A stretch of 64,000 nucleotides of DNA. Source: Syntrophotalea acetylenica (GTDB taxonomy: Bacteria; Desulfobacterota; Desulfuromonadia; Desulfuromonadales; Syntrophotaleaceae). The notes under the pieces were generated by a model that saw only the letters and a list, made by a program, of their open reading frames with translations, was not told where the DNA came from and made no database searches. Position numbers and translations under genes: made by a program. Positions 1 to 52,222 of the stretch are shown piece after piece. The number at the start of each line of letters is the position of its first letter. The stretch's first letter is position 1. The DNA is taken from contig NZ_CP015455.1 in the NCBI RefSeq assembly GCF_001888165.1, positions 2,350,001 through 2,414,000 of the forward strand. The letters run 5' to 3'.

Positions 1-2344
1 CAACTTCAACCTCTGCAAGAAACATTGCATAGTTGTGTTCGGGGGTTGGGTCACCGGCTCCGGTATTGGGATCAAGATCAATTGTAATATCTGTTGTGTC
101 AAACACACCGAGATATTTTGTCGGTATGTCTTCAGCAACCATTTCATCGTAGGTGCGGAAGGTGCCATCCGGTTTACGCATTGCCTCGAGCAGCTGTTTT
201 GCAGCATCCTTTGTTGCATTTCCAGCCATATAATGTGAACGGTTTGCGCCTGCAGGCCCTGTTATAGGACAAGTTTTGGTATCACACCTGATTATTTTGA
301 TTTGAGTATAATTGAGGTTGAGCTCTCTCAAGGCTTCATGCGTATGAACCAATGTGCCTACGTCAGCTCCCTGCCCCTGGTCTTCCCATCCGTTCCAGTG
401 AGTAATTGTTCCGTCTGGATTGAGTTCAAGGGCAACCTCTGCATGGTCATTGGGGTTCCCGGTAATGTTGTATCCGCCAATAGCGATACCGACACCACGT
501 TTCTTCTCGGGAGAGTCTTCCTTCTTGGCCCTGGCTACCGCCTCATTATAATAAAGACGCATTTTTTTCATGATTGCTTCATATGCGTACTCTTTATAAG
601 GATAGCTGTTGATATTCAGGTCTCCGGGTCTTGCGATATTGATCCACCTGAATTCGAAAGGATCAATCCCGGCTTTTTCTGCCAACATATCAACCATTGA
701 TTCGGACATGGTCATTGCCTGAGAGTTGCCGAATGATCGGTAAGCCGTACCGTATGTCTGATTTGAAGCACCGCAGCGGGCAATAGCTCTGGCATTCGGT
801 ATGTTATAGCCGTATCCTGCAAAACGGATAGCTTTGGAGGTAAGAACATCGCCCAGTTCTGAATAGGCACCGTGATCATATGCAAAATCAAACTCAAAAC
901 CGGTGATTTTCCCATCCTTATTACATCCGAGCCGTGCATTTGAATATGAAGCTGCACGCTTGCCGGTATATGCATTGTGCTCAGCATAGCTCATGGTCAA
1001 CGTTACAGGTTTTCCGTCGAGCGCCAAAGTACAAGCAGCTGCGAGAGCTGTGCTGGCAGGTGAAAGAGCATAGCCGAAGCTTGCTCCAACCGGGTTTTCA
1101 ATTACCCTTAAATTCCCTTCTGGGATCCCAAGTCCGGGACAAAGCATGATAAGTGCAAGAACCTGCGCAAGGTTTTTGTTGTGAACGGTAACCATTCCAT
1201 CCTCATCTATATAAGCCTGGGTAACCTCAGGCTCAATGACGAGATGCGGTTGGCTTGTAGTCTGAAAGCTTCCTTCTACAACATAATCGGATTTATCAAG
1301 TACCTCACGGGTGTCTTCACCTTTGAGTAGAGGCATTGTCAGATACATATTCGGAACTCCCGGGTGTATTTCGGCTGCTCCCGGTGCAACTGCTTCCAGA
1401 TAGCTCATGTAAACAGGCAACTCTTCAAGATCAAGTTTGACCCTTTTAGCTGCAGAACGTGCCTGATCTTCGGTTTCTGCCGCTACAACAGCAACAACAT
1501 CACCATATCGAAATACTTTTTCGTCAGCAATGATGGGACGGTCAATCCCATTAAATTTTGCACGCGGATGACCCAATGGGAACATAATTCTGTTGGTTCC
1601 CTTTATGTCTTTGGCGGTGATTACTTTAACAACGCCAGGCATTTTTTCCGCCTCTGAAGTGTCGATCCCCTTTATGTTGGCATGATTCACCCCAGGCTGC
1701 ACGATTGCCAAATGAAGTGTTCCGGGAGGCATTTTAAGCGCAACATCATCACCATAGTCGCAAGTACCTGTAACCTTGGCAAGCGCGGCGGGACGCGGTA
1801 CATTCGTTCCATAAATACGCCCGTCCTCAGGTACTTTGTACGTGATATCGTTCATTGTTTTTTCACCGCGCATAACTTTAGCGGCTTCCATTACGGCATC
1901 TACGAGCTGCTTGTATCCTGTGCAACGGCATGCATTCCTGTTTTTTGTGAACCAATCACGTACTTTTTCCCTGGTCGGGTTCAGGTTCTCTTGCAAAAGC
2001 GCATAAGAGGATACAATAAACCCAGGCGTGCAGAAGCCGCATTGCACCCCACCGTATGTGATCCAAGCCTGCTGCAAAGGATGCAGATTGGTAGGAGTCC
2101 CAATCCCTTCAATTGTGATAATTTTACTGTAGTCGGGAACGTTTTTGATCTTTTTTACACAGGAGCGCACTACCTTGCCGTCGAGTATCACGCTGCAAGA
2201 TCCGCATTGTCCTGTTCCGCAGCCAACTTTAGTGCCTGTGAGGCCTGCCCTTCTGATTACGTCCGCGAGTGAATCCTTCTCCGGATCACAAACCAGCATC
2301 CTGTCTGCTCCGTTCAAGTTGAGCCATATTTTTCTTAAAGCCAT
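1..2344 (-). CDS. mop: Mop-type molybdenum aldehyde oxidoreductase (partial, C-terminus outside window)
   Basis: Xanthine oxidase family enzyme that oxidises aldehydes to acids using a molybdopterin cofactor and two [2Fe-2S] clusters. I translated 781 continuous codons; the gene runs off the left edge. The N-terminal ferredoxin-like cluster ligands are C42, C47, C50 and C62, and the second cluster is given by QCGFC (C102, C105) and CRC (C139, C141), with the spacing of Desulfovibrio gigas Mop (907 aa). The molybdenum domain carries PVGASFGYALSP and AYRSFGNSQ, matching Mop substrate and cofactor loops. The catalytic Glu near residue 869 would lie outside the window. ATG at 2344 is preferred over the in-frame ATG at 2350 because a GAGAAAGG-type Shine-Dalgarno sequence then has proper spacing. 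It stands alone with a repeat-rich gap upstream. Confidence 0.93.
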   Translation of the reverse strand, partial: MALRKIWLNLNGADRMLVCDPEKDSLADVIRRAGLTGTKVGCGTGQCGSCSVILDGKVVRSCVKKIKNVPDYSKIITIEGIGTPTNLHPLQQAWITYGGVQCGFCTPGFIVSSYALLQENLNPTREKVRDWFTKNRNACRCTGYKQLVDAVMEAAKVMRGEKTMNDITYKVPEDGRIYGTNVPRPAALAKVTGTCDYGDDVALKMPPGTLHLAIVQPGVNHANIKGIDTSEAEKMPGVVKVITAKDIKGTNRIMFPLGHPRAKFNGIDRPIIADEKVFRYGDVVAVVAAETEDQARSAAKRVKLDLEELPVYMSYLEAVAPGAAEIHPGVPNMYLTMPLLKGEDTREVLDKSDYVVEGSFQTTSQPHLVIEPEVTQAYIDEDGMVTVHNKNLAQVLALIMLCPGLGIPEGNLRVIENPVGASFGYALSPASTALAAACTLALDGKPVTLTMSYAEHNAYTGKRAASYSNARLGCNKDGKITGFEFDFAYDHGAYSELGDVLTSKAIRFAGYGYNIPNARAIARCGASNQTYGTAYRSFGNSQAMTMSESMVDMLAEKAGIDPFEFRWINIARPGDLNINSYPYKEYAYEAIMKKMRLYYNEAVARAKKEDSPEKKRGVGIAIGGYNITGNPNDHAEVALELNPDGTITHWNGWEDQGQGADVGTLVHTHEALRELNLNYTQIKIIRCDTKTCPITGPAGANRSHYMAGNATKDAAKQLLEAMRKPDGTFRTYDEMVAEDIPTKYLGVFDTTDITIDLDPNTGAGDPTPEHNYAMFLAEVEV

Positions 2345-2414
2345 ACCCATCCACCTTTCTCTTTTAATGTCCTACGGTTGACATTGTCCCGGCTTTACGG
2401 ACACCGGGTGTAAA

Positions 2415-2513
2415 CTACACGTTTGAAGTGGGATGTTTCCCAATCGGTAGATTTTTGTAGCCGACAGTTGAGTGAAGACGCCGCCGGTTATAGCTGAGAA
2501 GCAGTACCGCTGA
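2415..2513 (-). pseudogene. IS3-family transposase C-terminal relic
   Basis: The minus-strand frame reads YNRRRLHSTVGYKNLP near its end. This matches the conserved end of the IS3-family integrase core (YNxxRxHSxxGYxSP). Only about 30 residues are recognisable, and no upstream DDE region or terminal inverted repeats are visible, so this is a remnant. Confidence 0.7.
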
Positions 2514-2580
2514 TCCAACTATTCGAAGCCAACTATTTTGTATTAAGGGCCAACAGTACCAGAGGGTTTCGCTCCCTCGC
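2501..2580. repeat. Diverged intergenic repeat, copy 1
   Basis: It shares an ordered set of words with 3265-3340: GTACyGCyGATCCAACT, then CCAAC..TTTTG.ATTAAGGG, then CAACAGTAC or CGACAGTAC followed by an AGAG..TTTC stretch. The two copies are collinear over about 75 bp. A short end copy occurs at 4869-4893. Confidence 0.6.
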
Positions 2581-3264
2581 TGTTTAAGCTTTGGCACCTT
2601 TTCGTAGCTGATCCTATGGCCAAGTTCCACGGGTGGTTATTTGCAACGGTCTTTTATCCCTTTGTGCAAATAACAAAAAAACCCACACCAAAATCCAGTA
2701 AATACCGGAATCAATGCGGGTTTCGCCAAGTCTGCCGAAGCAGAGGTCGAAGTAAGCGCGTAACTATTTAATTGTGGTATTGAGCTGCGGTTCAGCTACC
2801 TGCTTTGCTTTACCTTTTCGATATAATCGACGCCACCATCTTTCAAGGAAACAACCAATTTTCCGGAGACATCGTTTGTAAACCGCTCAATGTTTGCCAA
2901 GAATTTTTCTCAGTCGTATGTCCGACAGCACTGGAAAACCGTCCTCGCCAGATATAGTGCCGTTTCAAGTACCTTATCCTCCAGCGCCCTCGATTCAGCT
3001 GTTTGAAACCGAATGTTTTGAACCTGAATCCGTGGGGCGGCGGCGGATAAAGAGTGTAAGCGCTTGGCCTGGATAAGGTTTTCAAAAATCTGAGGTGCCC
3101 CCATAGGTTCACCGGCGATTTTGGGAAGCCTTAGGCGGGTCAATGGCTTGCGCTATTTACCGTCCAGGTCTCACGGATTCAGGCTGAAGCAAGGTTCGGC
3201 AGCACTGGGACACTCTCCATCCCCGGAATTAATGGAGTGGCCAAGGAGGACCCACCATTTCCCC

Positions 3265-3340
3265 CGGTACTGCCGATCCAACTGTTTAATCCAACGTTTT
3301 GAATTAAGGGTCGACAGTACTTCAGAGTTTCCCACCTCTG
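3265..3340. repeat. Diverged intergenic repeat, copy 2
   Basis: Second long copy of the repeat at 2501-2580, in the same orientation, with scattered substitutions and small gaps. Its origin (old insertion-sequence ends or a REP-like family) cannot be decided from this window. Confidence 0.55.
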
Positions 3341-3840
3341 GTGTAGCGGATTGCTCGGCGGATTCGCCGTTACCCCTCCAGCATTGCTGGCCCAACTAAT
3401 TTCAAAATTTTGGACAAACGAAGACCGTCAACAAAGCTTATGAACGTTTTATTCAACTTCCTGCAGTACTATTTTATTGATAAGTTCTACTACACAGCGA
3501 ACTTTCAAAATAACTGCAAGCTCCTCATCGTCTCTATGTGCAAATAGAAAGCAAGGAAAATGCCAATTGTAGAACTGCTGTTCATGTAAAAAATATATTT
3601 TAACTAGACAAAAAAAGAGAAGAGAACCTGTTGTAATATTGAGGATTTTTTTGGGGGTGTGGCGATGATAACAATTTATGGCCGTAATCTTTAAGGTTGT
3701 TTTGCTCCCGCGTGGTGTTAATATTTTTTACAACTGAACAGATGTGAGATTTCTTTACGTGAAGCATTTTTTGACATACGAACCAGATTGAACTGCACTG
3801 CGAAACACACCAAAGTTGAAACCACTGTTTCGTTTAGGCT

Positions 3841-3952
3841 GACTCGAGAAGGGTAACCACCGCTTCCAGGACAGGGAGGAGGCTCCGCGCACCGCCTGAA
3901 AAAGCCGGAGTCCGGCCGCTATCACCCGATGCGCCTCGTTCGAAGCGATCTG
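3841..3952. other. GC-rich multi-hairpin segment, possible structured RNA
   Basis: An abrupt GC-rich island in A/T-rich DNA with nested pairing: an outer GGGT/ACCC pair, an internal GGAG/CTCC hairpin, a perfect GCCGG-AGT-CCGGC hairpin and a CGCcTCG/CGAaGCG hairpin at the end. It lies between Mo- and W-enzyme genes. The words GAGGCTCC and CACCGCCTGA are loosely reminiscent of Moco-family riboswitches, which is a weak memory-based suggestion. No cofactor gene follows directly on either strand. Confidence 0.25.
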
Positions 3953-3958
3953 AAGCTA

Positions 3959-4005
3959 AATAATAAGACCTCATCCGCTGGTTAAATGGATGAGGTCTTA
4001 TTATT
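3959..4005 (-). terminator. Rho-independent terminator (perfect 18-bp stem)
   Basis: The arms 3959-3976 and 3988-4005 are perfect reverse complements around an 11-nt loop and end in an A/T-rich run. It lies just after the last gene of the leftward set (stop at 4059) and could act in both directions. Confidence 0.85.
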
Positions 4006-4058
4006 GAAGATTGAAATTTTTCTAGGTCGCTTTGCAGGAATCTGGCTGTCGAACTTTT

Positions 4059-4775
4059 TCAGACAGCCGCGGCTGTTGTCATCTTTTTTGGCTTGCTCAT
4101 CCCCGCTACAGCTAAAATAAGACCCAGAACGATTCCTAAAAGAGCGGCAAAAAGAATCTGAAAGTTAGGTGGAAGTAAAAAAGTAATGGTATGCGCCGGA
4201 ATCCAGAACAGAGGCAGAGTCTTCTTAAAAACGAACCCCCACATGACCGACCAGTCGATTTTCTTCAAAATTCTCGCAAAATCGATCTTGGAGAAATATC
4301 CACCCAACGTACCCCCTGTTTCCTCGATATGGATATCGGAAACTTTATGAAGGGTCATAAACAATGGTGCGAACATGAGGTTCATGCAGACGCTGATAGA
4401 GAAGGCGACCAAAACTTTCGCAGCAGTCAAGTTTCCTGCGAGGGGGTTTTCACCTAATTTATAAAAATAGTGATCAACCAGCATAGGAGAACCCGTTGCA
4501 AAAATCACAAATGCAATTTTGATCAGCACACCAGTAAAGCCCCAGAAAATTGCCCTAGGGAGAAGTCCGAAACCTTCCTTGGTATAAATTCCTTGTGAAA
4601 TTCGAAGCCCGATTACTTCACCCAGAGTTGCTAAAATAGAGAACTTTGCAAAACTCATAAGCAGAGCGTGCTGAGTTGTTGCTGTGTTGTAATAATACTG
4701 AGCGGTTTCCGATAGGAAAAAGGGGCTGAAAAAGGCTACTAGAATTACCAGAAACCAAAAGTCATTCTTTTTCAT
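4059..4775 (-). CDS. Integral membrane protein, possibly Mpv17-like
   Basis: A 238-aa hydrophobic protein with an N-terminal membrane segment and about five or six predicted spans. The C-terminal part has a tryptophan-proline motif (FWIPAHTITFLLPP) followed by a hydrophobic stretch, resembling the Mpv17/PMP22 signature. That assignment is tentative and comes from motif shape only. It is the last gene of the leftward aldehyde-metabolism set, followed by a strong terminator. About 110 bp separate it from the outer-membrane protein upstream, so co-transcription is likely but unproven. Its substrate or role cannot be inferred. Confidence 0.7.
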   Translation of the reverse strand: MKKNDFWFLVILVAFFSPFFLSETAQYYYNTATTQHALLMSFAKFSILATLGEVIGLRISQGIYTKEGFGLLPRAIFWGFTGVLIKIAFVIFATGSPMLVDHYFYKLGENPLAGNLTAAKVLVAFSISVCMNLMFAPLFMTLHKVSDIHIEETGGTLGGYFSKIDFARILKKIDWSVMWGFVFKKTLPLFWIPAHTITFLLPPNFQILFAALLGIVLGLILAVAGMSKPKKMTTAAAV

Positions 4776-4887
4776 AAAATATCCTTACTACAATTCGTAG
4801 ATTACCATTTAAGAGCCGGCAATATTTGAGATTTGCTCAATTGCTTGAAAGAAGACCCTTTAACTCCTATACTGCCGGCCCAACTGT

Positions 4888-5823
4888 TTAAAAAGCCCTG
4901 GTGATATTCAAACTGGTCATTATCCCTTCGGTACGGTCCACGGCTCCAAATTCGATGTTTGTCCGCATTTCGATCAAGGTTTTCCACTTGGGAATGGCAA
5001 ACCTAATTTCCGGACCAACGGCAAACACTCGGTCATGCACTTTATCCCATGTTACATCCTTGCCCCGGTCGTCCGTGATCTGGAACTGGGCATATCCCAC
5101 CACGCCGAGTTCAAAGCCCCGGAGCAGACCGATTCCCATCGAAGGAGGTAGAGCCTTTCCTATCCCCCACTCAAAGTGGAAGTCGTCACCGTACGTAACA
5201 TCGTGGCCACGCTGCTTGAAGTGCGTTTCATAACGACCAAGCCAGGACAGGCTCCATGTTTTTTCCTTGTCGGGGTAATAGGTGCCGCCAAGGTCGAACT
5301 GTGCTGTCCAGTAGCCTTTCCCCGCCCCCGCAGGATGGTCGGGATCATAGTGACCGACAGGCACCCAGGCCATCGCGCCGAATACCGCGTCCCACTGTTT
5401 TCCATGCCAGGCAATGGCAATAGGCTCAACAACACAGTCACCGAGGGAGACTCGTTCATCTGAAATGGAGAAAGAATCAAAATCAAGATCAAAATCCGTG
5501 TAGACAACTGGGATGACCACGTTGGGAAGCCAATCCCCGCCGAGAAGCTTGATATTAGTTACCCAGATTGGCCTGTGAACCTGAGCGAAGACAAATAGGT
5601 CCAGATCCCCAGACGAGTCCTTATGGCCATCTTTCAACGTGTCGACATGATAGAAGAAATTGTATAAGCGATAGTAAAAACCGGGAGGGCCAACCGTAGC
5701 CACCTTGATACCTTCACCGCCGTTGGTGAAATGATTGCCGGCGCCTCCACCGGCCACGGCCGTTCCTGTCCAGAAAAGCAGGCAAACCAGCAAAAGAAAA
5801 AAAATTTGTATTTTCAACTTCAT
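4888..5823 (-). CDS. Outer-membrane protein, phenol-degradation MetA-like family
   Basis: A 311-aa protein with a clear signal peptide (MKLKIQ, hydrophobic core, AVA cleavage-type end), then alternating aromatic and polar beta-strand-like segments and a C-terminal Phe, as usual for outer-membrane barrels. Overall pattern and length match the MetA-pathway phenol degradation-like family (Pfam Phenol_MetA_deg), often found beside catabolic operons and presumed to pass hydrophobic substrates. A strong AAGGGGGTGTT ribosome-binding site precedes the ATG. It lies 79 bp downstream of an MFS carrier gene, so the pair may give outer- and inner-membrane routes for the same substrate. Confidence 0.85.
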   Translation of the reverse strand: MKLKIQIFFLLLVCLLFWTGTAVAGGGAGNHFTNGGEGIKVATVGPPGFYYRLYNFFYHVDTLKDGHKDSSGDLDLFVFAQVHRPIWVTNIKLLGGDWLPNVVIPVVYTDFDLDFDSFSISDERVSLGDCVVEPIAIAWHGKQWDAVFGAMAWVPVGHYDPDHPAGAGKGYWTAQFDLGGTYYPDKEKTWSLSWLGRYETHFKQRGHDVTYGDDFHFEWGIGKALPPSMGIGLLRGFELGVVGYAQFQITDDRGKDVTWDKVHDRVFAVGPEIRFAIPKWKTLIEMRTNIEFGAVDRTEGIMTSLNITRAF

Positions 5824-5902: not shown

Positions 5903-7177
5903 TCAAGAAGCTTCGGCGGCACACCGTTCATCTGAGACTGAAGTTTTTTTCTCTCGTATTAAAAGAATTATCGCCATCCCAAAAACCGAAACAATTGTAA
6001 TCATGGCAAGAGCCCAATAGAAACTGCCTGTCGTTGCGATTGCTTTACCACCCAGATAAAGACCCAAGGCACCGCCAAATGTGCCGACGCCATAACAAAA
6101 ACCAACCATTCGGCCGAGAATACTCGGTGGGTAATTCATGCTGATAAAGGCACTAAGGGAGGCGTTCATAAACGGAATCCCCCACCCAGCGATCATAAGA
6201 CACAACACCAAATACCCCATTTGGCTGAAAACGGGTTCCAGCAGAATCAAATAAGCGAACCCCCCTGAAATCAAAAAGCCAAAGAGTACTGCGGGCTTGG
6301 GGTTTCCACGAGCAATTTTATCGAAAAACAATCCGCCGACAAACGGAGCAAAGATTCCGACTGCAGTCAGTGCCAACGAAATATTACCTGCCGTTACCGG
6401 GGGCAATCCAACCCCCATGGACGCCGGCGATGCCAGATAAGGAGGAACCAAGTTGTATAAGACGTACAACCCCCAGGCATTGCAAACAATCACCAAGGTA
6501 ATTAGCCAAGTTTTTGGCAACGCGAGGGCCTTGATGAAAGAAACCTGAACGCCCGAAGCCATAACATCCCCAAGCGACTTAAGCACTGCGGGAGAGGGCT
6601 GCCTGCGGGTAAAGACCAAGGCAAGCACTATTGCTATCCACCCCGGGATCGACATAAACGCAACCATCTTTTGCCAACTCCCCAAAAGGGTAAGTAAGGC
6701 GGGAGAACAGACCACACCAACAGTGGAACCAAGCGAGAGGGAACCAAAAAGAATCCCTGCAGCCAGCCCCTGTTCTTTGGGGGGAAACCACAGAGCCATA
6801 ATCGGTCCTATTGTCGCAAATACAAAACCGACCGAGGCCCCTTGTACCAATCGACACAAAAAGACTGTTCCGTAGTTGCTTCCGATAATTGGCATCAAAA
6901 CCGCGGGGACTGAGGTGCAAAGCAATCCAAGTACAAGTGCGGCGGTAATCCCGCACTTATCACAAACGACGCCCCCGAAAGTCAGCACACACGCCACCGC
7001 CAGAACGAAACCCATCATAAGGTTGGTGGCTGAACCAACATCAATCTGCAAATTTGAGGCGATGTCACCGAGAACCGGGGCAAAAACAATCATGTTGATA
7101 TAAAGAGACAAAATGGCCACACTTCCAGCAAGCAACACCAACCATCGATAGTTTGAGTACACATTCTTATCTTCCAT
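5903..7177 (-). CDS. Major facilitator superfamily transporter
   Basis: A 424-aa, 12-span MFS carrier. The first-half loop after span 2 reads FGGVVCDKCGITAALVLG, a variant of the MFS motif A region, and the protein ends in a basic cytoplasmic tail. The pattern resembles organic-acid and oxalate/formate-type carriers, but the substrate is not determined. The ATG at 7177 is chosen over an in-frame GTG at 7183 because AGGAG lies 8 nt before it. A G8/C7 hairpin (7200-7217) sits just upstream. It lies between AOR and the MetA-like porin, so it could move the acid product or an aromatic or branched substrate across the inner membrane. Confidence 0.88.
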   Translation of the reverse strand: MEDKNVYSNYRWLVLLAGSVAILSLYINMIVFAPVLGDIASNLQIDVGSATNLMMGFVLAVACVLTFGGVVCDKCGITAALVLGLLCTSVPAVLMPIIGSNYGTVFLCRLVQGASVGFVFATIGPIMALWFPPKEQGLAAGILFGSLSLGSTVGVVCSPALLTLLGSWQKMVAFMSIPGWIAIVLALVFTRRQPSPAVLKSLGDVMASGVQVSFIKALALPKTWLITLVIVCNAWGLYVLYNLVPPYLASPASMGVGLPPVTAGNISLALTAVGIFAPFVGGLFFDKIARGNPKPAVLFGFLISGGFAYLILLEPVFSQMGYLVLCLMIAGWGIPFMNASLSAFISMNYPPSILGRMVGFCYGVGTFGGALGLYLGGKAIATTGSFYWALAMITIVSVFGMAIILLIREKKTSVSDERCAAEAS

Positions 7178-7199
7178 GCACACAACTCCTGTTCAGCAA

Positions 7200-7292: not shown

Positions 7293-8995
7293 CTAGAAAG
7301 GCAGTGCCGCATCGAGTTCTTCATTGGGAACGTCGAAAACATTTCCAGACTCAGGCAAAGCTTCCTCAGAGAAGAAAGCGGGGAGTCGGTCATCTTTTTC
7401 CGTGAAACCTGCCAATCGATTGAAGTTTTTCTCCAGAGAAAGGCACTGGACTCCTAAGCCCATCAGTTTTTCGATATCCCAATCGCCACCGTATTTAGCT
7501 CCTACCATCTCGGCAAGCAGTTGAATGTTTTCCGGGTTCTCAAAAGCGAAGCTGGCAAAGATACACATGCCCAAGGAATCCATCAATGCCATGGCAACTT
7601 GCGCATTCCGGGAAAGCTCGACCTTGCCTTCTTTGTCAGCGGGATCGCCAGGCATACCGATAACATTTCCGCATGTATGATCGCCTCCCATAGGCGAGGT
7701 GGCATAAGTCACGCCGGTACCCTTAAGACCCCGAGGATCATAGGCCGCAAGGGCCTGACCTTTAGCAGTGGGGATTCGCTTTACGCCAAAATGCTTGCCG
7801 GCAGTTTCAGTGCCATTACCAAGAATTCGGCCGCGTTCCGTACCATCAATCATTTCCTGAACGAGCTGAATGGCAGCCTCTCCGTCGCCCCAAGGAATTT
7901 CTCCGGCCTCCATGGCCACACCGATGGTACACCCTGCATCCATGGTATCAATTCCGAGGTCATCACACATCCGATCGATCCGTGCAATGGCGTCAATGTC
8001 TTTAATTTCGCAATTGGCCCCAACCAAACCTATGGTTTCGTATTCAAAGCCGGAAGTCAGATAGTTGCCGTCAGCATCGTTATAAATCTGTGAACACTTG
8101 ATGATGCAACCAGGGTGACAGGCATGTACCATTACTCCATTACGATCTCCCTGCAATTCGGCAATGTGTTCACCACTGATGGCCTCGGCATGCTCAAAGG
8201 TACCCTTGCTGAAATTTTTGGTGGTAAGAATCCCCATGCCATTGGTTACATTGACCAAAACAGCCGTACCCAGCGCGCGCAAGCCGCCGACAACGTGATT
8301 GCCAAGAAGCGCCTTAGAATAAGTTTTATTTCTTACCGCAAAGGCTGTCTTATCAAGCATCTCACCCCGGTAATTCCCTTTTTCTTTAATGACAAAGGCC
8401 TTGATTTTTTTGGAGCCCATAACTGCACCAAGCCCTCCGCGTGCCGCTGCTCTGGCGGGTTTCCCATCGGGATCTGTAATTTGAACCGTCGAATTGCGGT
8501 AGCCACGCTCACCCGCGCAACCGATCGATGCGATACTTATTTTGGCGCCAAACTCCTGCTGAAGACAGGCAACCAGCTCGTAATTATTCATGCCAAGATA
8601 CTTTTCAGCAGGCAGGAATTCGACAGAATCTTCTCCGAGCACGACAATGTGCCAATCGTCATCAGCAGGCTGGTCTTCGATGATGAAAGCCTTCAGGCCC
8701 AGGCTAAAAAGGTATTGGGCAAAAGTACCCCCGGCATTGGCCTCCTTGATGGTGCCGGTCAGGGGGCTTTTGCCACCAACGGAAAGTCGACCCGAGCAAG
8801 GCGCAGGCGTATCTGCCAGAAGGCCAACGCAAAATATAAGTTTGTTTTCCTTCCCCAAGGCATCACATTTGGGGTCAACCTCATCATTAAGAATTTTGGC
8901 GATGAGTGCTCGCCCACCAAACAGCTCCATCCCTTGGGGGGGGCGCTAAAAACGGCTGACTTGTCGGCCATGTTGATGCGCAGAAACTTCTTCAT
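7293..8995 (-). CDS. aor: Tungsten-type aldehyde:ferredoxin oxidoreductase, frame broken in a C8 tract
   Basis: Oxidises aldehydes to carboxylic acids with ferredoxin, using a tungstopterin and one [4Fe-4S] cluster. The N-terminus (MKKFLRINMADKSAVF, ATG at 8995, GAGGAG site 8 nt upstream) and the body (from MELFGGRALIAKIL near 8930) are in different frames. One extra base in the run of eight C (8936-8943) joins them into about 567 aa, near the family length. Cluster ligands are seen as CHPGCIIKC and the distal cysteine in LGMCIFA. Pterin-loop motifs include DPRGLKGTGVTYATS and GGDHTCGN. The ATG at 8930 alone lacks a spaced Shine-Dalgarno. It lies between the alcohol dehydrogenase and the MFS gene. 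The break may be a sequencing error, phase variation or inactivation. Confidence 0.88.
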
Positions 8996-9138: not shown

Positions 9139-10284
9139 TTAATAGGCCTTTTCAAGGATTTGCAGTACATCCTCCTTGGTAACATCGCGAGGATTGAACA
9201 TGGTCGAAATTTCTTTCAGCGCATCCTCGGCCAGCCGATCAAACAAGTCTTTGGGAACATCCAAATCATGTAATTTGGGAATTTCCAGTTTTTTGGACAG
9301 AGATTTAACGGCTTCAACAGCAACAGTTACAGCCTCTTCAGCCGACTTGTCGGCTACGTCAAGCCCCATAGCCAAGGCAATATCCTTGGTTTTTTCTGGA
9401 ACGGCAACACCGTTGAATTCCATAACAAAAGGCAGACCAATAGCGTTTGCAACCCCATGAGGCAAGCCGCAATGAACGCTTAGGGGATGGGCGATACTGT
9501 GCACCAAGCCAAGTACAGCGCTGTTGAAGGCATAGCCGGCAAGCATAGAACCGAGCAACATATTTGTTCGGGCTTCCAGGTCCTGCCCGGTCTTGGTTGC
9601 TTTTTCCAAGTTTTTATAGATCAGTTCGATGGCCTTGAGGGCAAACAGGTCAGTGGGCACCATGGCCCCTTTGGAAACATAGGCTTCAATGGCATGAGTT
9701 AAGGCGTCCATACCCGTGGAAGCAGTAATAGCCGGCGGCATCCCCATGGTCATCTCGGGATCGGCCAGGGCCATGGTAGCACCGACAAATTGGCCACCGA
9801 TAACCATCTTCTTCTTTTTGGTAGTATCAGTGACAATGGAAAAAGCCGTTACTTCACTGGCAGTCCCGGAGGTGGTGGGGATAGCGATAAGCGGCTTGGT
9901 CGGATTTTTCACCAGATTAAGGCCATCATATTGATTGATAGGAGACGGGTTAGTCTGCAGAATGTTGATGGCTTTAGCGCAATCGATGGAGGAACCACCG
10001 CCGAGTGCCACCATAACATCAGCTTGAAAAGCTTTTGCCTTTTGGGCAGCTTCTTCAACAATAGTGTCAGGAGGATTGGGCAACACCTCGTCATATTCCA
10101 TAACCTCAAGACCCGCTTCCTTCAATGAACTGAGCACCACATCTGTCAAACCGGCGGCCTTGACACCTTTGTCATAGACAAAAAATACCTTTTTCGCTCC
10201 TAGCTGTTTTGCTACCTCACCGGTTTGTTTTGCAACGCCACAACCAAATTGAACAAAGCTAGGGATACCAAACATGAATTCCAT
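9139..10284 (-). CDS. Iron-containing (group III) alcohol dehydrogenase
   Basis: NAD(P)-dependent interconversion of an alcohol and an aldehyde. The 381-aa length is standard for the family. GGGSSIDCAKAI is the nucleotide-binding glycine motif. Metal ligands fit an Asp in LADPEMT, a His in DALTHAIEAYVS and two His in GLVHSIAHPLSVHCGLPHG, the Fe-ADH signature. I prefer the ATG at 10284 (MEFMFGIPSF) because GGAGAG lies about 8 nt before it; the in-frame start at 10302 overlaps that site. It is the first gene of the leftward set, with a sigma-54-like promoter at 10431-10446. It would reduce the decarboxylase's aldehyde product or oxidise an alcohol to feed AOR. Confidence 0.93.
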   Translation of the reverse strand: MEFMFGIPSFVQFGCGVAKQTGEVAKQLGAKKVFFVYDKGVKAAGLTDVVLSSLKEAGLEVMEYDEVLPNPPDTIVEEAAQKAKAFQADVMVALGGGSSIDCAKAINILQTNPSPINQYDGLNLVKNPTKPLIAIPTTSGTASEVTAFSIVTDTTKKKKMVIGGQFVGATMALADPEMTMGMPPAITASTGMDALTHAIEAYVSKGAMVPTDLFALKAIELIYKNLEKATKTGQDLEARTNMLLGSMLAGYAFNSAVLGLVHSIAHPLSVHCGLPHGVANAIGLPFVMEFNGVAVPEKTKDIALAMGLDVADKSAEEAVTVAVEAVKSLSKKLEIPKLHDLDVPKDLFDRLAEDALKEISTMFNPRDVTKEDVLQILEKAY

Positions 10285-10430
10285 TTCTTCTCTCCTAATC
10301 ACTTGAGGTTAATTTGATGTTGCCATATGTCTTTTACTTTATTTGTTACCGATTTCTTTATGCCCTTCCTAAAAGCACCTCCTTTCTTAATCTCCACCTA
10401 AGGACCAGGGCACACACTCATGGTCATTGT

Positions 10431-10446
10431 GCAAGGGGAGCACCAT
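10431..10446 (-). promoter_or_regulatory. Sigma-54 (-24/-12) promoter candidate for adh/aor
   Basis: On the minus strand it reads TGGTGC-TCCCC-TTGCA. This keeps the invariant GG and GC ten bases apart, a perfect TTGCA box and four of six bases of TGGCAC. The start site would be near 10419, about 135 nt before the ATG. Confidence 0.65.
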
Positions 10447-10757
10447 GTTTTTTTGCCAAGGCGGAAATTCGCCATTTTTCCGTACAACATCGTTTCATTT
10501 CCGTTTCAACCATTCGTTTTAATAGCACTTTCTTGAGAACGAAATGGAAATCCCCTATAGGGAATTCTGGAAAAGGAGAAGACAAAAACCTCTTGTTGAG
10601 AGTGTTAAAATTTTTAACGGGACAAAAAAACGGTTTAAATATTTACGGCTCTAAAAGGAAAGAAAGGTCTTAAGGACTACAAATATTAAGCACAGACATT
10701 TAAAATTCGGCATTAAAGACAACCTCGGCAAGAAAATATCATCATAGAGGAGTTGCT

Positions 10758-10773
10758 AGGAATAGGCCTTGCA
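10758..10773 (+). promoter_or_regulatory. Weaker sigma-54 promoter candidate for the decarboxylase
   Basis: AGGAAT-AGGCC-TTGCA has GG-N10-GC spacing and a perfect -12 box but only three of six bases in the -24 box. It would start transcripts about 40 nt before the ATG. Confidence 0.4.
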
Positions 10774-10825
10774 GCAGTTGTTCTGTTTAATTCCAAATCA
10801 ATGATGGATTAACAGGAGACAAAGA

Positions 10826-12502
10826 ATGAAAATGACAATTGGAAATTTTCTTTTTATGCGCCTCCAGCAGATTGGAGTAGGGCATATGTTTGGCGTTCCC
10901 GGTGACTACAATCTCCAGTTATTGGAGCAAATGAAAGAAGTGGATGGCATAGAATTTATCGGCACCTGTAATGAGTTGAACGCTGCCTATGCTGCGGATG
11001 GATACGCCCGCACAAACGGGGTTGGAGCGTTACTCACGACTTATGGCGTAGGAGATCTCAGCGCCGTCTGCGGGATTGCCGGCTCTTGTGCCGAACACGT
11101 TCCCGTCGTTTTCATCTCCGGTGTTCCCCCTCTCTACGCAATGAAGAATCGGTTGCGGGTCCATCACTCGCTAGCTGAAGGGGATTTCGATAATATTATG
11201 AATTGCCTCAAGGAATTCACGGTCGTGAACACAAGGCTGACTCCTGGCAATGCCGCGGAAGAAATAGACCGCGCTCTTATCCGCTGCTGGAGGGAAAAAA
11301 TGCCTGTCTACCTCCAAGTTCCTTCAAACATCTCGTACCTGATGGTCGACGTTTCGGACTTTAAGCTGGAACTGAAACTTCCCGCAAGCGATCCCGAACG
11401 CTTGGAGAGTGCCGCCAGACACATTGCCAAACTGTTGAATGAAGCCAAAAAACCAGCCCTGCTTATCGATATGGATGCCGACCGCTCCATGCTCGTAGAA
11501 GGTCTCACCTCAGTTGTGAAGAAAAGACAGGTGCCTTATGCCGCATTCCGTACCGGAAAGGCGCTTCTGAGTGAAACTGATCCTCTCTTTCTGGGCGTCT
11601 ACATCGGCGAGGCTTCAGAACTTTCAGTAAAAGAAGCGATTGGGACATCCGATTGCCTGATTGCAACAGCACCGTGCTTTGTCGAGAGCAGCCCGATGGT
11701 ATCACCGAGCGGCATTCCCATCACAGCCCACGTATATATTCGGGGGGGAGACGTCACCGTCGAGGGCGAGGTCTACGAAGGGGTGACGGCGAGAGAGTTG
11801 GTTTTCCGACTGACAGAACTGGTTGAGAGCTGTCCAGAAAGATTTGAGCAACCTACATCCTTCACAAATGTTCCCACCCCTCAACCTGGGGCTTCGTTGA
11901 CGCAGGCTCGCCTATGGCCGAGAATGAGAGGGTTCATTCGTCCGGGCGACGTTGTTGTCGCGGACAACGGCACCTCCAATATCTCCCTGACTGACGTGCG
12001 GTTGCCGGAAAATACCAAGTACATATCCCAACTCATCTGGGGTTCTATCGGTTATTCGCTACCAGCGCTGCTTGGTTCGATGATGGCCGCACGCGATCGA
12101 CGACACGTCCTGTTCATCGGCGACGGGTCGTTTCAACTCACAGGACAAGAACTATCGACAATCCTAAAATCGGAACTGAAACCCATCATTTTTCTACTGA
12201 ACAATCGCGGATACACAATAGAGCGCTATATACTGGGCATGCGCGAGGCCTATAACGACATCGCCAACTGGCGATACTCTGCGCTGCCTGCCGTCTTCGC
12301 GCCCGATATAGATACTTTTGTTGAAACTGTAGGAACTGAGGATAAGCTCGAAGAGGTCCTTCAAAAAGTCGAGGGATGCAACTGCGCCTGCTTCATTGAA
12401 CTTCTTCTGGATCCTGAGGATGCACCTGCAGCCCTGAAAACTTTCGGTCCCCTGACTGCGAAATTGGATTACGGACCTAGAGGCCCTCAACGCACCTCAT
12501 GA
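10826..12502 (+). CDS. Thiamine-diphosphate 2-keto-acid decarboxylase (pyruvate/indolepyruvate/phenylpyruvate type)
   Basis: A 558-aa cytoplasmic enzyme that removes CO2 from a 2-keto acid to give an aldehyde. The catalytic Glu is E50 in CNELNAAYAADGYAR, and the paired histidines H113-H114 (RVHHSLAEGDFDN) match the numbering of Zymomonas pyruvate decarboxylase. GDGSFQLTGQEL...LLNN is the thiamine diphosphate/Mg2+ motif. The family also includes IpdC and KdcA, and I cannot tell pyruvate from aromatic or branched substrates by eye. AGGAGA precedes the ATG. It is divergent from adh/aor across a shared control region, which argues for one pathway: keto acid to aldehyde here, then acid (AOR) or alcohol (ADH). 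Confidence 0.92.
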   Translation: MKMTIGNFLFMRLQQIGVGHMFGVPGDYNLQLLEQMKEVDGIEFIGTCNELNAAYAADGYARTNGVGALLTTYGVGDLSAVCGIAGSCAEHVPVVFISGVPPLYAMKNRLRVHHSLAEGDFDNIMNCLKEFTVVNTRLTPGNAAEEIDRALIRCWREKMPVYLQVPSNISYLMVDVSDFKLELKLPASDPERLESAARHIAKLLNEAKKPALLIDMDADRSMLVEGLTSVVKKRQVPYAAFRTGKALLSETDPLFLGVYIGEASELSVKEAIGTSDCLIATAPCFVESSPMVSPSGIPITAHVYIRGGDVTVEGEVYEGVTARELVFRLTELVESCPERFEQPTSFTNVPTPQPGASLTQARLWPRMRGFIRPGDVVVADNGTSNISLTDVRLPENTKYISQLIWGSIGYSLPALLGSMMAARDRRHVLFIGDGSFQLTGQELSTILKSELKPIIFLLNNRGYTIERYILGMREAYNDIANWRYSALPAVFAPDIDTFVETVGTEDKLEEVLQKVEGCNCACFIELLLDPEDAPAALKTFGPLTAKLDYGPRGPQRTS

Positions 12503-35346: not shown

Positions 35347-38300
35347 TCAATATTTATCCAACTCCTTCAATTTCTCCTCCAGCTTGGAAAAGGCTTCCAT
35401 ATCCAGATTGCTCAAATTAGGCTTCTTTTTTATTTGAGTCTGCTTCAGTGACTGAAGCGAATTATCACGAACCTGCCGCAGCGAAGATCCAGATTTTGCC
35501 GGGTCATAGGCTTCGGGGCGCAGCGAAAATCCAGGTTTTGCAGCATCGTAGGTCCCAGGCTGCAAAAATGAGCGGGATTTTTCTGGATCATAGGCTCCGG
35601 GACGCAATGAAGCTCCGGAATTTGCCGGATCATAGGCTTCAGGGCGCAGCGAAAATCCAGGTTTTGGCTTGTCCGGATTTGAGTTCGTCTCGGAACCCTT
35701 CGGATCAGTCAAGGATTCCAGCGCCTTCCGTCGAGCTTCCCTTTTCTTTGCCACGGAATCGGTGGGAGCATTAAGGTTCCCCGGTCGGGGATCGGCAAAG
35801 GAAATTTCCGCGACGGCCTCTCTGGCCCGCTCGGCAGCACCCTCTCCCAAGTCCCTTCTTTGTCCCAACTGCTGGCCCACCCGGTTGTGAATCGCGGCCT
35901 GGTCCCGCAGAACCCAGTTACCGTCTTTTTCCGTGTCGAGAAGCTTGTACCGCTCGGCCAGCCAGCCCTGAATATCCTTATTGAGCGCATTCTGTTCTTG
36001 GCCACTACCGCCCCTTGCTGCGGCCATGTCATCCAGTACCGCCATTATGGCTTGCTCGCTGACAATGCCATACTGGCTCTGCGCCCGGTCTATCGCATAG
36101 GCCGTCATCAGTTCCATGTTTTGATCGGCAGAGGTCGTGTCCCGGGTCGCAGCCTCGCGCAGATGGCTCCACCCCTCGGCGGCGTTGGCCTGGGCGGCCG
36201 TGGACGCGGCATAAGCGCGGCCAGCCGAGGTATTCATGGTTTTCACCAGAGCCTCCTTGCGGATGCTTGCTGCCGTATTTTCAAGAGCAGATATTTCCTC
36301 TTCGCTGGCCTTGAACGTGGCCGATTGCCCCTTGGAATTTCGCATCTGGTACTCTCCACTTACCCCGGCTTTAATCTCCAGCATGCCCAGGGTAAGGTTT
36401 TTCAAAAGGGCACCCGCGTTGAGTCCAATGCTTGCCCCCGCTTTAAAAAGGCGGTCCCTGGTCTGCTTTGACACCTGGTCGAAGGCCGAACCGTTTGCCA
36501 CCCGTTGCGTGACGGAATCCTTGATGGAGTTGCTCAGTTCCTCCTGGTAGGAGCGGGCTTCCCCGCTGTTGGTTCTGCTTTCTTCCAGTGCCTGCCAGTG
36601 CTGATTCCAGTTTTTGCCGGCCGATAGCGTATGCGCCCCTTTCTCGATGGCCAGCTCCTGGTAAGCCTTTCCAAACCTGGCGCCCATGCCCGCAGCCTCG
36701 ACACGCCAGCGCTCCTGGCCGCCCTGTTCGATCAGATGGTGTATCTTTCCAACCGCTTCACTGGAAAGACTCCGGTTTTCCGCCAGAACATTCCCCGAAG
36801 CATCCTTTTCAGCGTTCGCGTCCAGTTTCCAGCCGGCACCAAGGGTGGTCGCGGTAGTATGCCCGCCGCGCAGCGCGGATGTCACAAGCCCGCCTTCCGT
36901 GCCGCCAAAGCTCAACGTGCCTTGTTCGGTCTGGATGGCGCCTCCCATCTGCGAGCGCCGCATGTAATGACCCAGGCTGCTCATGTCGCTCATGCCCGTC
37001 GGCATCTGCCCAGCCTGTTGCAGGTTTCCGATGTTGCGGCGCACGGCGGCAGCGCCTTCGACCCCGCGAACCTGATTGACCATGCCTTCATCCATCATCG
37101 GGCCAAATCCGTAACGCGGATGGTTGGCAATGGTTTCCGTTGGCATGGACCAGGCGTTGGATTTGAGGGCGGAAGCCCGACCGGAAGGGTCCTCCGTCAT
37201 ATTGGCGGCCAGCTGCCCGGCTGTCTTGATCTGCCCGGTCAAATTTCCCGCCAGCGTCGCCAGGGCATGGCCTCCGAATTTGACCAGAATGCCTGTCATG
37301 ACGGTGGCCAGCATCAGGCCCGACATTCTCACCGTGCCGAACATGCCCAGAACCTTGACCATCTCTCCCGGCACGAAATAAAAAGCGTCCATGCCCAAGC
37401 CGCTGCCCTTCGCCGGCAGGCCTTCAAGCACCTTGGTGCCATAGTCCATCAGAAACTGATGCAGCAAAGCGTCCGTAATCCCCCAGGATGCCAGCCAGAT
37501 AAAGAACCCGAGCATGACACTCAATGCCTTCCCGAACAGGGGTGTCGGAATGAACAACGCCAGAAACGGGACCAGGCCGAGAGCAATCGCCGTCAGCACC
37601 CCTTTCATGACCGGCAGCCATTCGTTGGCCGCCTTCATGCTGCCGCTCGCCCCGGTCAGGAATTTGTAGTTGGCAACAGCGGCGGTATCGCCCGAACGGA
37701 ACACATCGTGGAGTCGCTGCGAGAGATACGCCTGGCGCATGAAATCGTCCGTGGTCATGCCGCTGACTCCAAGATCCTGCAAGGTGGCCTGAAGATCCGA
37801 TTTGCACTTTTGGTAGCTTGCGGTGTCGCCGGAGTCATAGCCAAGCTGGGAACAAATCCCCTTCAGGTTTTCCTCCAGGTGGGCCGGCGACGCGAGATAG
37901 GTGTTTATGTTGCCCCATGCCTCCTGGCAGGTCATGGTCTGGCCCTGCGGCATGGCCAGGTCGTAATACACCGTATAGATGGCGGGAGAATCGGCCTTTG
38001 CAAAAGAAGAGGAAAAATCCGTGGCAGTGCGGCGCAGTTCATCCACGGTCAGGGTGGCCCCCGGCCGGTTGATCTCAAACGCCACGCAGTCTTCCAGGTA
38101 CTTGTTGATCGAGCTGTCGATCAGGGTGTCATCGGAAGTGAGAACCTTGGTGGTTGCCTGAAACAGTCCGAGAAAACCGCTGCCACCAGCCTGGTTGATG
38201 TAGCTTCGGGGATCGCCAGAGGTTGCGATGATCTCCGTCATGCCCCGCTCCACCAGGTTCAGTATGCCGGCTACGGCCACGATGCCATCCGGAATGCCCG

Positions 38301-38667
38301 CCACGGCCTGATAGCGGTTGGTGGTGGGGTCGTAGATATGAACGGTTCCCGTCGGGATGACCAGACTCAGGTAAAGGATCACCCCAACCATGATGGGCAC
38401 CATCCAGGTAATGGGATTGGCCCGGGCTCCGGTGGCGGCCCGAACGGTTATGGCCAGTCCACCCAGAATCAGGGCCATTATGACAACCGAGAAAAACAGG
38501 CCCTTGTAACCACCATCGCTGAAAATCAGCGCCAGCCGCTGAAAACCGCTGACCACCGGATCGAAGCCGTTGTAGGTGTGGAATTCAGCGTCCAGGGAAA
38601 AACCCGGGGCGGGCACCGCCAGGATGGCGCACAAGGTGCCGAAAAGGGGTACAAGGGATTTAGGCAT
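35347..38667 (-). CDS. traG: F-type conjugative transfer protein TraG
   Basis: A 1106-aa inner-membrane protein. The N-terminal half (TraG_N) has a signal-like start and clusters of membrane spans near 55-110 and 340-480. The large hydrophilic C-terminal half would lie in the periplasm or enter the mating partner, as in F TraG (938 aa), which acts in pilus assembly and mating-pair stabilisation. The start at 38667 (MPKSLVPLFG) has GGAG 8 nt upstream; the in-frame ATG at 38691 has none. It is the last gene of the leftward tra operon. The extreme C-terminus carries 15-aa tandem repeats not expected in F TraG. Confidence 0.9.
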   Translation of the reverse strand: MPKSLVPLFGTLCAILAVPAPGFSLDAEFHTYNGFDPVVSGFQRLALIFSDGGYKGLFFSVVIMALILGGLAITVRAATGARANPITWMVPIMVGVILYLSLVIPTGTVHIYDPTTNRYQAVAGIPDGIVAVAGILNLVERGMTEIIATSGDPRSYINQAGGSGFLGLFQATTKVLTSDDTLIDSSINKYLEDCVAFEINRPGATLTVDELRRTATDFSSSFAKADSPAIYTVYYDLAMPQGQTMTCQEAWGNINTYLASPAHLEENLKGICSQLGYDSGDTASYQKCKSDLQATLQDLGVSGMTTDDFMRQAYLSQRLHDVFRSGDTAAVANYKFLTGASGSMKAANEWLPVMKGVLTAIALGLVPFLALFIPTPLFGKALSVMLGFFIWLASWGITDALLHQFLMDYGTKVLEGLPAKGSGLGMDAFYFVPGEMVKVLGMFGTVRMSGLMLATVMTGILVKFGGHALATLAGNLTGQIKTAGQLAANMTEDPSGRASALKSNAWSMPTETIANHPRYGFGPMMDEGMVNQVRGVEGAAAVRRNIGNLQQAGQMPTGMSDMSSLGHYMRRSQMGGAIQTEQGTLSFGGTEGGLVTSALRGGHTTATTLGAGWKLDANAEKDASGNVLAENRSLSSEAVGKIHHLIEQGGQERWRVEAAGMGARFGKAYQELAIEKGAHTLSAGKNWNQHWQALEESRTNSGEARSYQEELSNSIKDSVTQRVANGSAFDQVSKQTRDRLFKAGASIGLNAGALLKNLTLGMLEIKAGVSGEYQMRNSKGQSATFKASEEEISALENTAASIRKEALVKTMNTSAGRAYAASTAAQANAAEGWSHLREAATRDTTSADQNMELMTAYAIDRAQSQYGIVSEQAIMAVLDDMAAARGGSGQEQNALNKDIQGWLAERYKLLDTEKDGNWVLRDQAAIHNRVGQQLGQRRDLGEGAAERAREAVAEISFADPRPGNLNAPTDSVAKKREARRKALESLTDPKGSETNSNPDKPKPGFSLRPEAYDPANSGASLRPGAYDPEKSRSFLQPGTYDAAKPGFSLRPEAYDPAKSGSSLRQVRDNSLQSLKQTQIKKKPNLSNLDMEAFSKLEEKLKELDKY
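35473..35667 (-). repeat. 45-bp coding tandem repeat in traG
   Basis: About 4.3 copies of a 15-residue unit near [PG]xSLRPxAYDPxKS, differing by a few substitutions per copy. The repeats are proline- and tyrosine-rich and precede a Lys-rich tail. They are coding, in frame and unlikely to be a CRISPR or iteron array. Confidence 0.9.
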
Positions 38668-38753
38668 TGATGCAACTCCATTGGTCGGCATGGTGCGAAT
38701 GTTTTGCTTCGCCTATGATCGCTGTTGTGGCGGCCTCTTTCCCCTCAGGCGGA

Positions 38754-39476
38754 TCAATCGACATGTACCACACCCGCTTCGATTAGCTTGCGGTTGCGGC
38801 GGGTCGCCAGGAGCAGGGCAACGGTTGGGATGGCGATGAACACGGCGGTCACGCCCAAAACCAGCCAGGCCGAGGTCAGCAAGACCGGCTTGAAGCCATA
38901 GACCCAGTGATAAATGGCCAGAACCGCGGACTGGGGGACGTGGAGCCTGTACAGCGCCTTTGCCGCCCACTGCATATGTGCGTCCGACAGCACCGCGAAA
39001 TAAAGGAAATGAAAGGCAATGAAGGCCAGAATCGCTTTCAGGATCGCGCCGGCCACCACACCGCCCAGCAGGTTGCGAATCATCGCCTTGGTGTAGTTGC
39101 CGATGAACTTGGTGGCGGCGTAGGCCAGAAAGATACCGAACCCGAGCGAATACCCCACAGCCAGCAGAAAGGCGAAAACCAGGTCAAAAGTGTCGGGATC
39201 GGTGGAGCCAAATACGGGGATGTAGCGTTCCACGACGCCGATTGCGACAGGGGTCAAAAGCGCCGCGATCAGACCCGAAAGAAAGGAACTGCGAAAGCCG
39301 ACCTCGAAAAACTCGATACGCTGCTTCGTCGTCAGGAAGGTATCGCGGATAACCGCGCCTCCCAGTTCATTGGCGAAATTCTGCTCGATGAATGAAATCG
39401 CCTCCAAAAACCCTTTCGGATGGATCTCCTGGCCGGGCGGCATGGGCATGATGTCGGGGCTTGCACCTCTGCTCAC
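38754..39476 (-). CDS. Transfer-region polytopic membrane protein
   Basis: A 240-aa protein with a 60-residue cytoplasmic N-terminus and about five membrane spans (roughly 65-85, 98-120, 135-160, 195-225), ending in a basic tail. The GTG start follows AGGAGGTTGTT. It lies between the small membrane protein and traG in the same operon direction. I do not recognise the family; a part in the mating-pair channel or in lipid and murein handling is possible. Confidence 0.8.
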   Translation of the reverse strand: MSRGASPDIMPMPPGQEIHPKGFLEAISFIEQNFANELGGAVIRDTFLTTKQRIEFFEVGFRSSFLSGLIAALLTPVAIGVVERYIPVFGSTDPDTFDLVFAFLLAVGYSLGFGIFLAYAATKFIGNYTKAMIRNLLGGVVAGAILKAILAFIAFHFLYFAVLSDAHMQWAAKALYRLHVPQSAVLAIYHWVYGFKPVLLTSAWLVLGVTAVFIAIPTVALLLATRRNRKLIEAGVVHVD

Positions 39477-39485
39477 AACAACCTC

Positions 39486-39740
39486 CTACCGGGCCAGAAG
39501 CCCGAAAAACCGGAACAATGCCGCGCCATAAGCAATGAATCCGGCGATAAGGAACGTCCAGAAGCCGACGATGAAATTGCGACGGCGAATGCCATACCAA
39601 AACGACAGAGCCAGAAAGGCAACGGCAAAGGCCCGGCTCCAGAAGCCGAGAAAGATGGTGGCGAAAAGCGTTTGCCAGAAGTTGGCGTACTCTGCGTTTT
39701 CCACATGGGTCAATGGATTGAACGTGTCGAGCCAGGACAT
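39486..39740 (-). CDS. Small transfer-region membrane protein
   Basis: An 84-aa protein with two predicted spans (about 20-45 and 55-78) joined by a basic turn (GIRRRN). ATG 39740 follows AGGAG at 7 nt spacing. The larger open frame extends back into the S26 peptidase gene and is rejected. It lies between the peptidase gene (11 bp) and the 240-aa membrane protein. No family recognised. Confidence 0.75.
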   Translation of the reverse strand: MSWLDTFNPLTHVENAEYANFWQTLFATIFLGFWSRAFAVAFLALSFWYGIRRRNFIVGFWTFLIAGFIAYGAALFRFFGLLAR

Positions 39741-39750
39741 GCGAACGCTC

Positions 39751-40621: not shown

Positions 40622-40738
40622 GAAGAACTCCTCTCCATTTTCCAGAGATAAGAACTACTCTTTATTATGTTCAGCGATTTCCAGATTCGAATTTTGCGAT
40701 TTCCAGAGAAGAAGTGTTTTCCCCCTCTTTCTCCCTTG

Positions 40739-44550: not shown

Positions 44551-44560
44551 TACCGGGCTC

Positions 44561-48973: not shown

Positions 48974-48983
48974 GTCAAACCTC

Positions 48984-51344: not shown

Positions 51345-51345
51345 C

Positions 51346-52166: not shown

Positions 52167-52222
52167 GGTCACTCCAGAAGAAAACGGTGGGAAACGGGAG
52201 GGGACGGGGGCCCCTCCTTGGG

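Follow-up and report, generated by a model that had tools for sequence, protein, structure and literature searches.

A probable sigma-54 promoter and enhancer unit of an aldehyde-metabolism regulon in Syntrophotalea acetylenica

The intergenic region between an alcohol dehydrogenase gene (adh) and a divergent 2-keto-acid decarboxylase gene in Syntrophotalea acetylenica DSM 3246, previously known as Pelobacter acetylenicus DSM 3246, is very probably a sigma-54 promoter and enhancer unit of an aldehyde-metabolism regulon that includes an activator, four operons, and a possible decarboxylase arm. The region lies in the 64-kb stretch of DNA analysed here (the window), which corresponds to C1:2350001-2414000 of the two-contig genome. 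Comparison with orthologous loci supports the assignment of the adh-aor promoter, of its enhancer palindrome (UAS), and of their link to the activator (Table 1).

Table 1 Positions of genes and regulatory elements (window coordinates except where C1 or L027 is given).
Feature	Position	Strand	Basis or remark
Activator gene	C1:2344965-2347025 (L027:8965-11025; window -5035 to -2975)		DhaR/AcoR type
mop, molybdopterin aldehyde oxidoreductase	1..2350, continuing leftwards to about -514	minus	NCBIfam NF045668
mop sigma-54 box TGGCATTTTCCTTGCT	3550..3565	minus	Pattern and score search
mop UAS copy	3717..3731	.	151 bp from mop sigma-54 box
Membrane protein, adh-aor operon	4059..4775	minus	No Pfam match; orthologue about 60% identical in G578 and G582
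Porin-like protein (Phenol_MetA_deg family), adh-aor operon	4888..5823	minus	PF13557; orthologue 74-77% identical
MFS carrier, adh-aor operon	5903..7183	minus	Pfam MFS_1; orthologue 69% identical in G578 and G582
aor, tungsten-type aldehyde:ferredoxin oxidoreductase	7293..8995	minus	Pfam AFOR_N, AFOR_C; frame interrupted
adh, Fe-dependent alcohol dehydrogenase	9139..10284	minus	Pfam PF00465, PF25137; start MEFMFGIPSF
Sigma-54 -24/-12 box TGGTGCTCCCCTTGCA	10445-10430	minus	Faces adh-aor; pattern search, orthologue spacing, alignment
UAS palindrome GTTAAAAATTTTAAC (minus-strand reading)	10604..10618	.	Between the two divergent promoters; matrix scan, genome search, alignment
Weak sigma-54-like box AGGAATAGGCCTTGCA	10758..10773	plus	Faces decarboxylase; score 10.4
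ThDP-dependent 2-keto-acid decarboxylase, divergent	10826..12502	plus	Pfam TPP_enzyme N, M, C

Promoter and enhancer of the adh-aor operon

The -24/-12 match that the initial annotation placed in front of adh and aor is present, with the GG and GC doublets and the TGG-N8-TTGC spacing. Taken by itself the box is weak and marginal evidence, only moderately unlikely to have arisen by chance: the sigma-54 pattern with one mismatch occurs at 6 sites in the window compared with 7.3 expected, and the best sigma-54 score of the 541-bp region is equalled in 2.8% of shuffled regions. Over the whole 3.2-Mb genome, which encodes sigma-54 itself, the strict pattern gives 74 matches compared with 28 for a reversed control. 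Four of these 74 lie within 16 kb on one strand, at C1:2344481 before a butyrate kinase-pta-acylating aldehyde dehydrogenase operon, at C1:2349120 before a gene whose 492-aa product matches no family and is probably an outer-membrane protein, at C1:2353550 before mop, whose leader is long (1.2 kb), and at C1:2360430 before adh-aor. The weight matrix for sigma-54 followed the published consensus, and that for the UAS was built from sequence copies as described below.

Reading of the upstream regions of these four island promoters revealed a common AT-rich palindrome of the form GTTAAA-N3-TTTAAC, whose copy at 10604-10618 had been overlooked in the initial annotation. Nowhere else in the genome is GTWAAAAAWTTTAAC matched exactly, and with at most one mismatch there are six places, five of them inside a 21-kb area. 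Because the palindrome was derived by inspecting the four promoters, an independent test was needed, and a weight matrix trained only on copies from genomes of another family was scanned over 199 kb of DSM 3246. The top score, 23.3 bits, fell on the same 15 positions, with the runner-up at 18.5 bits, and four of the top six matches sit 151-158 bp from a sigma-54 box. At this distance the motif learned from the other genomes also lies upstream of the sigma-54 sites of buk-pta, the 492-aa protein gene, and mop. From the palindrome between the divergent genes it is 158 bp to the adh-facing box and 139 bp to the decarboxylase-facing box. Two matches, at C1:2215354 and 2339194, have no properly placed sigma-54 box, the latter lying inside a reading frame.

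The other genomes come from a sample of 277 genomes of the class which, like a further sample of 13 relatives in the family, is not exhaustive, so that absence from either means absence at the thresholds used. Three of the 277, all in one genus of another family, encode full-length orthologues of the activator (48% identical), and in 3/3 (G578, G582 and G583) an adh orthologue is next downstream. The interval between the two genes contains two UAS copies followed by a box, TGGTATCACCTTTGCT or TGGTATTGCATTTGCT, of the type TGGTAT-N5-TTGCT. One UAS copy is perfect or nearly so, and one copy in G583 is degenerate. From GC(-12) to the adh ATG there are 147 bp in DSM 3246 and 145, 143, and 144 bp in the three orthologous operons, with a leader of ~130 nt predicted 5' of adh, and the UAS centre lies 160-177 bp from the -24 GG across the four genomes, with a second copy 39-40 bp farther upstream in the three others. 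Aligning the promoters of the four genomes (65% mean identity) shows two clear invariant stretches, the UAS (GTTAAA...TTTAACA) and the TGG...TTGC box; no other invariant block from adh up to the UAS is as long. All main copies of the UAS keep GT-N11-AC, with the full TGT-N11-ACA found only in some (mop and one copy in G578).

Because orthologous operons share both its position and its enhancer, and four such sites cluster within 16 kb, the adh-aor sigma-54 site can be regarded as real. These comparisons give strong support to the control of adh-aor by sigma-54, and the palindrome is likely to be the enhancer of its promoter. It is very improbable that the boxes are chance matches in a region under ordinary sigma-70 control, as the frequency of one-mismatch matches in the window might suggest, because box, UAS, and spacing are conserved in three other genomes and the UAS is common to four promoters. 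The initial annotation had drawn attention to other elements between the boxes, namely CGTTTCA repeats and the palindrome CCCTATAGGG. Both are present, the former at 10491 and 10502 (among 12 occurrences in the window over both strands) and the latter at 10553, but they are not conserved in the four-genome alignment and were rejected as enhancers. No IHF consensus site was found in the four promoters.

The genes of the operon are conserved together with its promoter. The adh orthologues are 71-74% identical and share the same start; those of aor (71-72%), the porin, the membrane protein, and the MFS carrier lie on the same contig in G578 and G582, the contig of G583 ending within adh. The aor orthologues have an unbroken reading frame, whereas in DSM 3246 the frame opening with the ATG at 8995 and that of MELFGGRALI (8930) are one base apart, with the break at a run of eight C at 8936-8943. 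As the DSM 3246 genome is a PacBio-only assembly rich in pseudogenes (132, compared with 44 in a sister strain; PMC5331499), the break may be a sequencing error, a pseudogene or a variable tract being the alternatives.

The activator and its predicted regulon

The initial annotation had remarked that no enhancer-binding protein gene is present in the window, and a search of the 64 kb for sigma-54 activator domains likewise found none. This absence is an edge effect, since the activator gene lies ~3 kb to the left of the window. The activator has the GAF-PAS-AAA+-HTH architecture, with a PF00158 domain in which the AAA+ GAFTGA loop is intact, and an HTH_8 match of 19.4 bits that falls under the 22-bit cut-off. 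A model of its N-terminus (pLDDT 76) has E. coli DhaR(N) as best structural match, while the NCBIfam DhaR model NF008485 scores 318.7 bits against a cut-off of 551, which places the protein outside the DhaR equivalog. All four activator orthologues share the recognition helix GISKPTLY, which differs in three relatives of the paralogue type. About 20 other full-length sigma-54 activator domains are encoded in the DSM 3246 genome. Among the 13 family relatives no counterpart of the activator was found at E <= 1e-90, and a search for a close homologue in a metagenome-assembled genome (L041) gave only activators that match over the shared AAA+/HTH part.

In the proposed mechanism, the activator would bind GTTAAA-N3-TTTAAC at 10604-10618, and a DNA loop would bring it to sigma-54 RNA polymerase at the adh-facing box, upon which transcription of adh, aor, and the genes for the MFS carrier, porin, and membrane protein would start. 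The same activator, using copies of this palindrome at a like distance from the box, may also control the buk-pta-acylating aldehyde dehydrogenase operon, the 492-aa protein gene, and mop. The signal for the activator could be an aldehyde or an alcohol.

The enzymes of the predicted regulon could be classified from family models. With 1226 bits against a cut-off of 1100 for NF045668, mop encodes a Mop-type molybdenum aldehyde oxidoreductase, and the kinase is a butyrate kinase (472.8 bits against a cut-off of 289 for TIGR02707, compared with 78 for the acetate kinase model). Between mop and its sigma-54 box, the ~1.2 kb at 2351-3549 contains no convincing gene and includes two similar ~60-bp pieces near 2500-2560 and 3280-3340; this segment looks like an insertion remnant. 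Acetylene hydratase, whose sequence matches PDB 2e7z over the whole chain, was considered as a further member and rejected, since the surroundings of ahy contain neither a strict UAS copy nor a sigma-54 box that would fit.

The divergent decarboxylase

The initial annotation had proposed divergent sigma-54 control from the intergenic region, and the evidence for the decarboxylase side differs from that for adh-aor. The decarboxylase-facing box is on the right strand, has GG-N10-GC spacing, and places GC(-12) at a normal 54 bp from the ATG, with 0.017 matches of such a score expected by chance in that stretch. However, AGG replaces TGG, the score is low, the UAS lies at 139 bp compared with 151-158 bp for the other promoters, and no orthologue with a similar upstream sequence was found for comparison. 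It is plausible, with the chances about evenly balanced, that one UAS drives both divergent promoters. The adh-aor half of the earlier proposal stands, and the decarboxylase half has a box that is present but weak. Somewhat below an even chance is the alternative that sigma-54 serves adh-aor only, the decarboxylase being transcribed from another promoter and the weak box being a coincidence. The spacing of its UAS, unlike that of the other four promoters, would fit this alternative, as would the absence of the decarboxylase from orthologous operons, which would have left the divergent side little time to evolve; the geometry and rarity of the box speak against it, and the sigma-70-like matches listed included none from the intergenic region.

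Its distribution marks the decarboxylase as an addition in this lineage. No relative was found elsewhere at E <= 1e-110 among the 277 class genomes, and family members have only a relative of 31-33% identity, which DSM 3246 also possesses. This family-wide relative (31%; L068:5284-15946, C1:3015284-3025946) lies near genes for a sigma-54 response regulator, pta, and a probable histidine kinase. The nearest named relatives of the decarboxylase itself are found in a metagenome-assembled deltaproteobacterium (74%; L041), Gluconacetobacter (56%), and Kocuria (53%). None of the loci L041-L057 shows synteny with adh-aor, and the 74% relative is in a different neighbourhood. None of the three orthologous adh-aor operons includes the gene. 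In Gluconacetobacter sacchari (L042:7659-11695), the gene for the 56% decarboxylase relative has, two genes upstream, one that encodes a 31% relative of the operon's 238-aa membrane protein, which hints that the two proteins may be functionally connected.

For the reading with a shared enhancer, the palindrome would probably also fire the weaker sigma-54 promoter of the decarboxylase, and the enzyme, added to the regulon in this lineage, would feed aldehyde into it. We tentatively suggest, at rather less than even confidence, that one bidirectional sigma-54 enhancer captured a horizontally gained and functionally new decarboxylase clade into an alcohol and aldehyde regulon. If so, a single activator co-ordinates aldehyde production, tungsten- and molybdenum-dependent oxidation, ATP formation via butyrate kinase, and transport.

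The closest solved relatives of the decarboxylase are KdcA, the nearest, and indolepyruvate decarboxylase, which share its fold family, ThDP dependence, and catalytic residues. In KdcA numbering, D26, E49, H112, H113, N455, and E462, residues with well-known roles in catalysis, are all kept. In contrast, the KdcA pocket residues Q377, F381, F382, V461, M538, and F542 are replaced by N, N, I, I, F, and T, and the TIGR03393 model for indolepyruvate decarboxylase scores 455 against a cut-off of 946, outside that equivalog. None of the characterised enzymes in this comparison has a matching pocket. A prediction of substrate from the pocket was attempted and was not possible; given the changes relative to KdcA, a claim can be made neither for pyruvate nor for branched or aromatic keto acids.

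Two pathways can be weighed, each with a presumed direction of flux. A credible reading, if not quite a probable one, is that the regulon serves C2 metabolism of ethanol and acetaldehyde, including acetaldehyde from acetylene, and that the decarboxylase turns pyruvate, rather than amino-acid-derived keto acids, into acetaldehyde. This species ferments acetylene through acetaldehyde to ethanol and acetate (PMC5331499), alongside pta the regulon includes an acetaldehyde-type acylating aldehyde dehydrogenase, and its pair of tungsten and molybdenum aldehyde oxidoreductases resembles the two types of acetaldehyde oxidoreductase, W- and Mo-dependent, found in P. carbinolicus (PMC4275255). However, the kinase of the operon is a butyrate kinase and not an acetate kinase, which points to C4 or branched acids, and the nearest solved decarboxylase, despite its different pocket, is the branched-chain enzyme KdcA. 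These two features instead fit, together with the similarity to indolepyruvate decarboxylase, the Ehrlich-like route put forward in the initial annotation, in which branched or aromatic keto acids would yield aldehydes that are converted to acids, with ATP formed through the acylating dehydrogenase, Pta, and butyrate kinase or with oxidation by AOR or Mop, or else to alcohols. The decarboxylase is catalytically intact, but the route as a whole we regard as rather doubtful, with Q377, F381, F382, M538, and F542 of the KdcA pocket all changed, no decarboxylase in the orthologous operons, and neither an aminotransferase nor an amino-acid transporter evident in the examined genes.

Mobile DNA and relation to known systems

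The initial annotation placed the region on mobile DNA, a claim with partial support. Genes of F-type conjugation (TraG, TraN, TraC, and coupling protein) flank the island on both sides, a tyrosine recombinase and IS transposases also surround it (all within window 35347-54166, L066:9966-11342, and C1:2337441), and neither the activator nor the decarboxylase has a close counterpart in the 13 family relatives. Elsewhere in the genome, a second alcohol dehydrogenase/AOR cluster (L067:5923-16074; C1:2321923-2332074) carries a histidine kinase and a sigma-54 response regulator of its own, as well as two porin-like genes, and its AOR is 71% identical to an AOR near the activator locus in G578. Ahead of the acetylene hydratase gene (L103:13368-15560) lie a tyrosine recombinase-like gene (3829-4941) and a putative reverse-transcriptase-like ORF (L103:10042-11295), which suggests that acetylene hydratase too is within mobile DNA (L103:3829-15560).

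A study of Pelobacter acetaldehyde metabolism from 2014 rested on enzyme activities and 2D gels. For P. acetylenicus, there is now a specific activator with a predicted binding site and with predicted targets in four to five operons, including those of tungsten and molybdenum oxidoreductases, which makes the regulation of aldehyde oxidoreductases directly testable. The decarboxylase falls in a clade with uncharacterised enzymes of acetic acid bacteria and Kocuria. The activator, of the DhaR/AcoR type, resembles DhaR in its N-terminal fold, going by the predicted model and DhaR(N), while its gene context is not that of dihydroxyacetone or acetoin metabolism. The DVU2275 regulon of Desulfovibrio vulgaris differs in targeting pyruvate formate-lyase (PMC4641369).

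Control of alcohol dehydrogenase and aldehyde oxidoreductase genes by sigma-54 and an activator is already known in Clostridiales, tested for AdhR and predicted for AorR, with UAS of the form TGT-N10-12-ACA (PMC7017808; PMC6615313). In Clostridium beijerinckii, mutants, EMSA, and reporters support the control of adhA1 and adhA2 by AdhR, likewise a GAF-PAS-AAA+-HTH activator, with a sigma-54 box and, as here, an iron-type alcohol dehydrogenase gene that has several copies of the UAS in front of it (PMC7017808). The present system differs in phylum, in its AT-rich UAS, and in including AOR, a molybdenum aldehyde oxidoreductase, the buk-pta-acylating aldehyde dehydrogenase genes, a carrier, and outer-membrane genes. 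In Clostridium and Geosporobacter, sigma-54 and a dedicated activator, AorR, are predicted to control an aldehyde oxidoreductase, as here, but that regulon consists of aor-moaD only and its UAS is TGT-N10-12-ACA (PMC6615313). The evidence across four genomes thus points to a counterpart in Desulfuromonadia of the clostridial control of AOR and alcohol dehydrogenase, in which a GT-N11-AC palindrome with an AT-rich core would represent a variant of the known control with a wider regulon.
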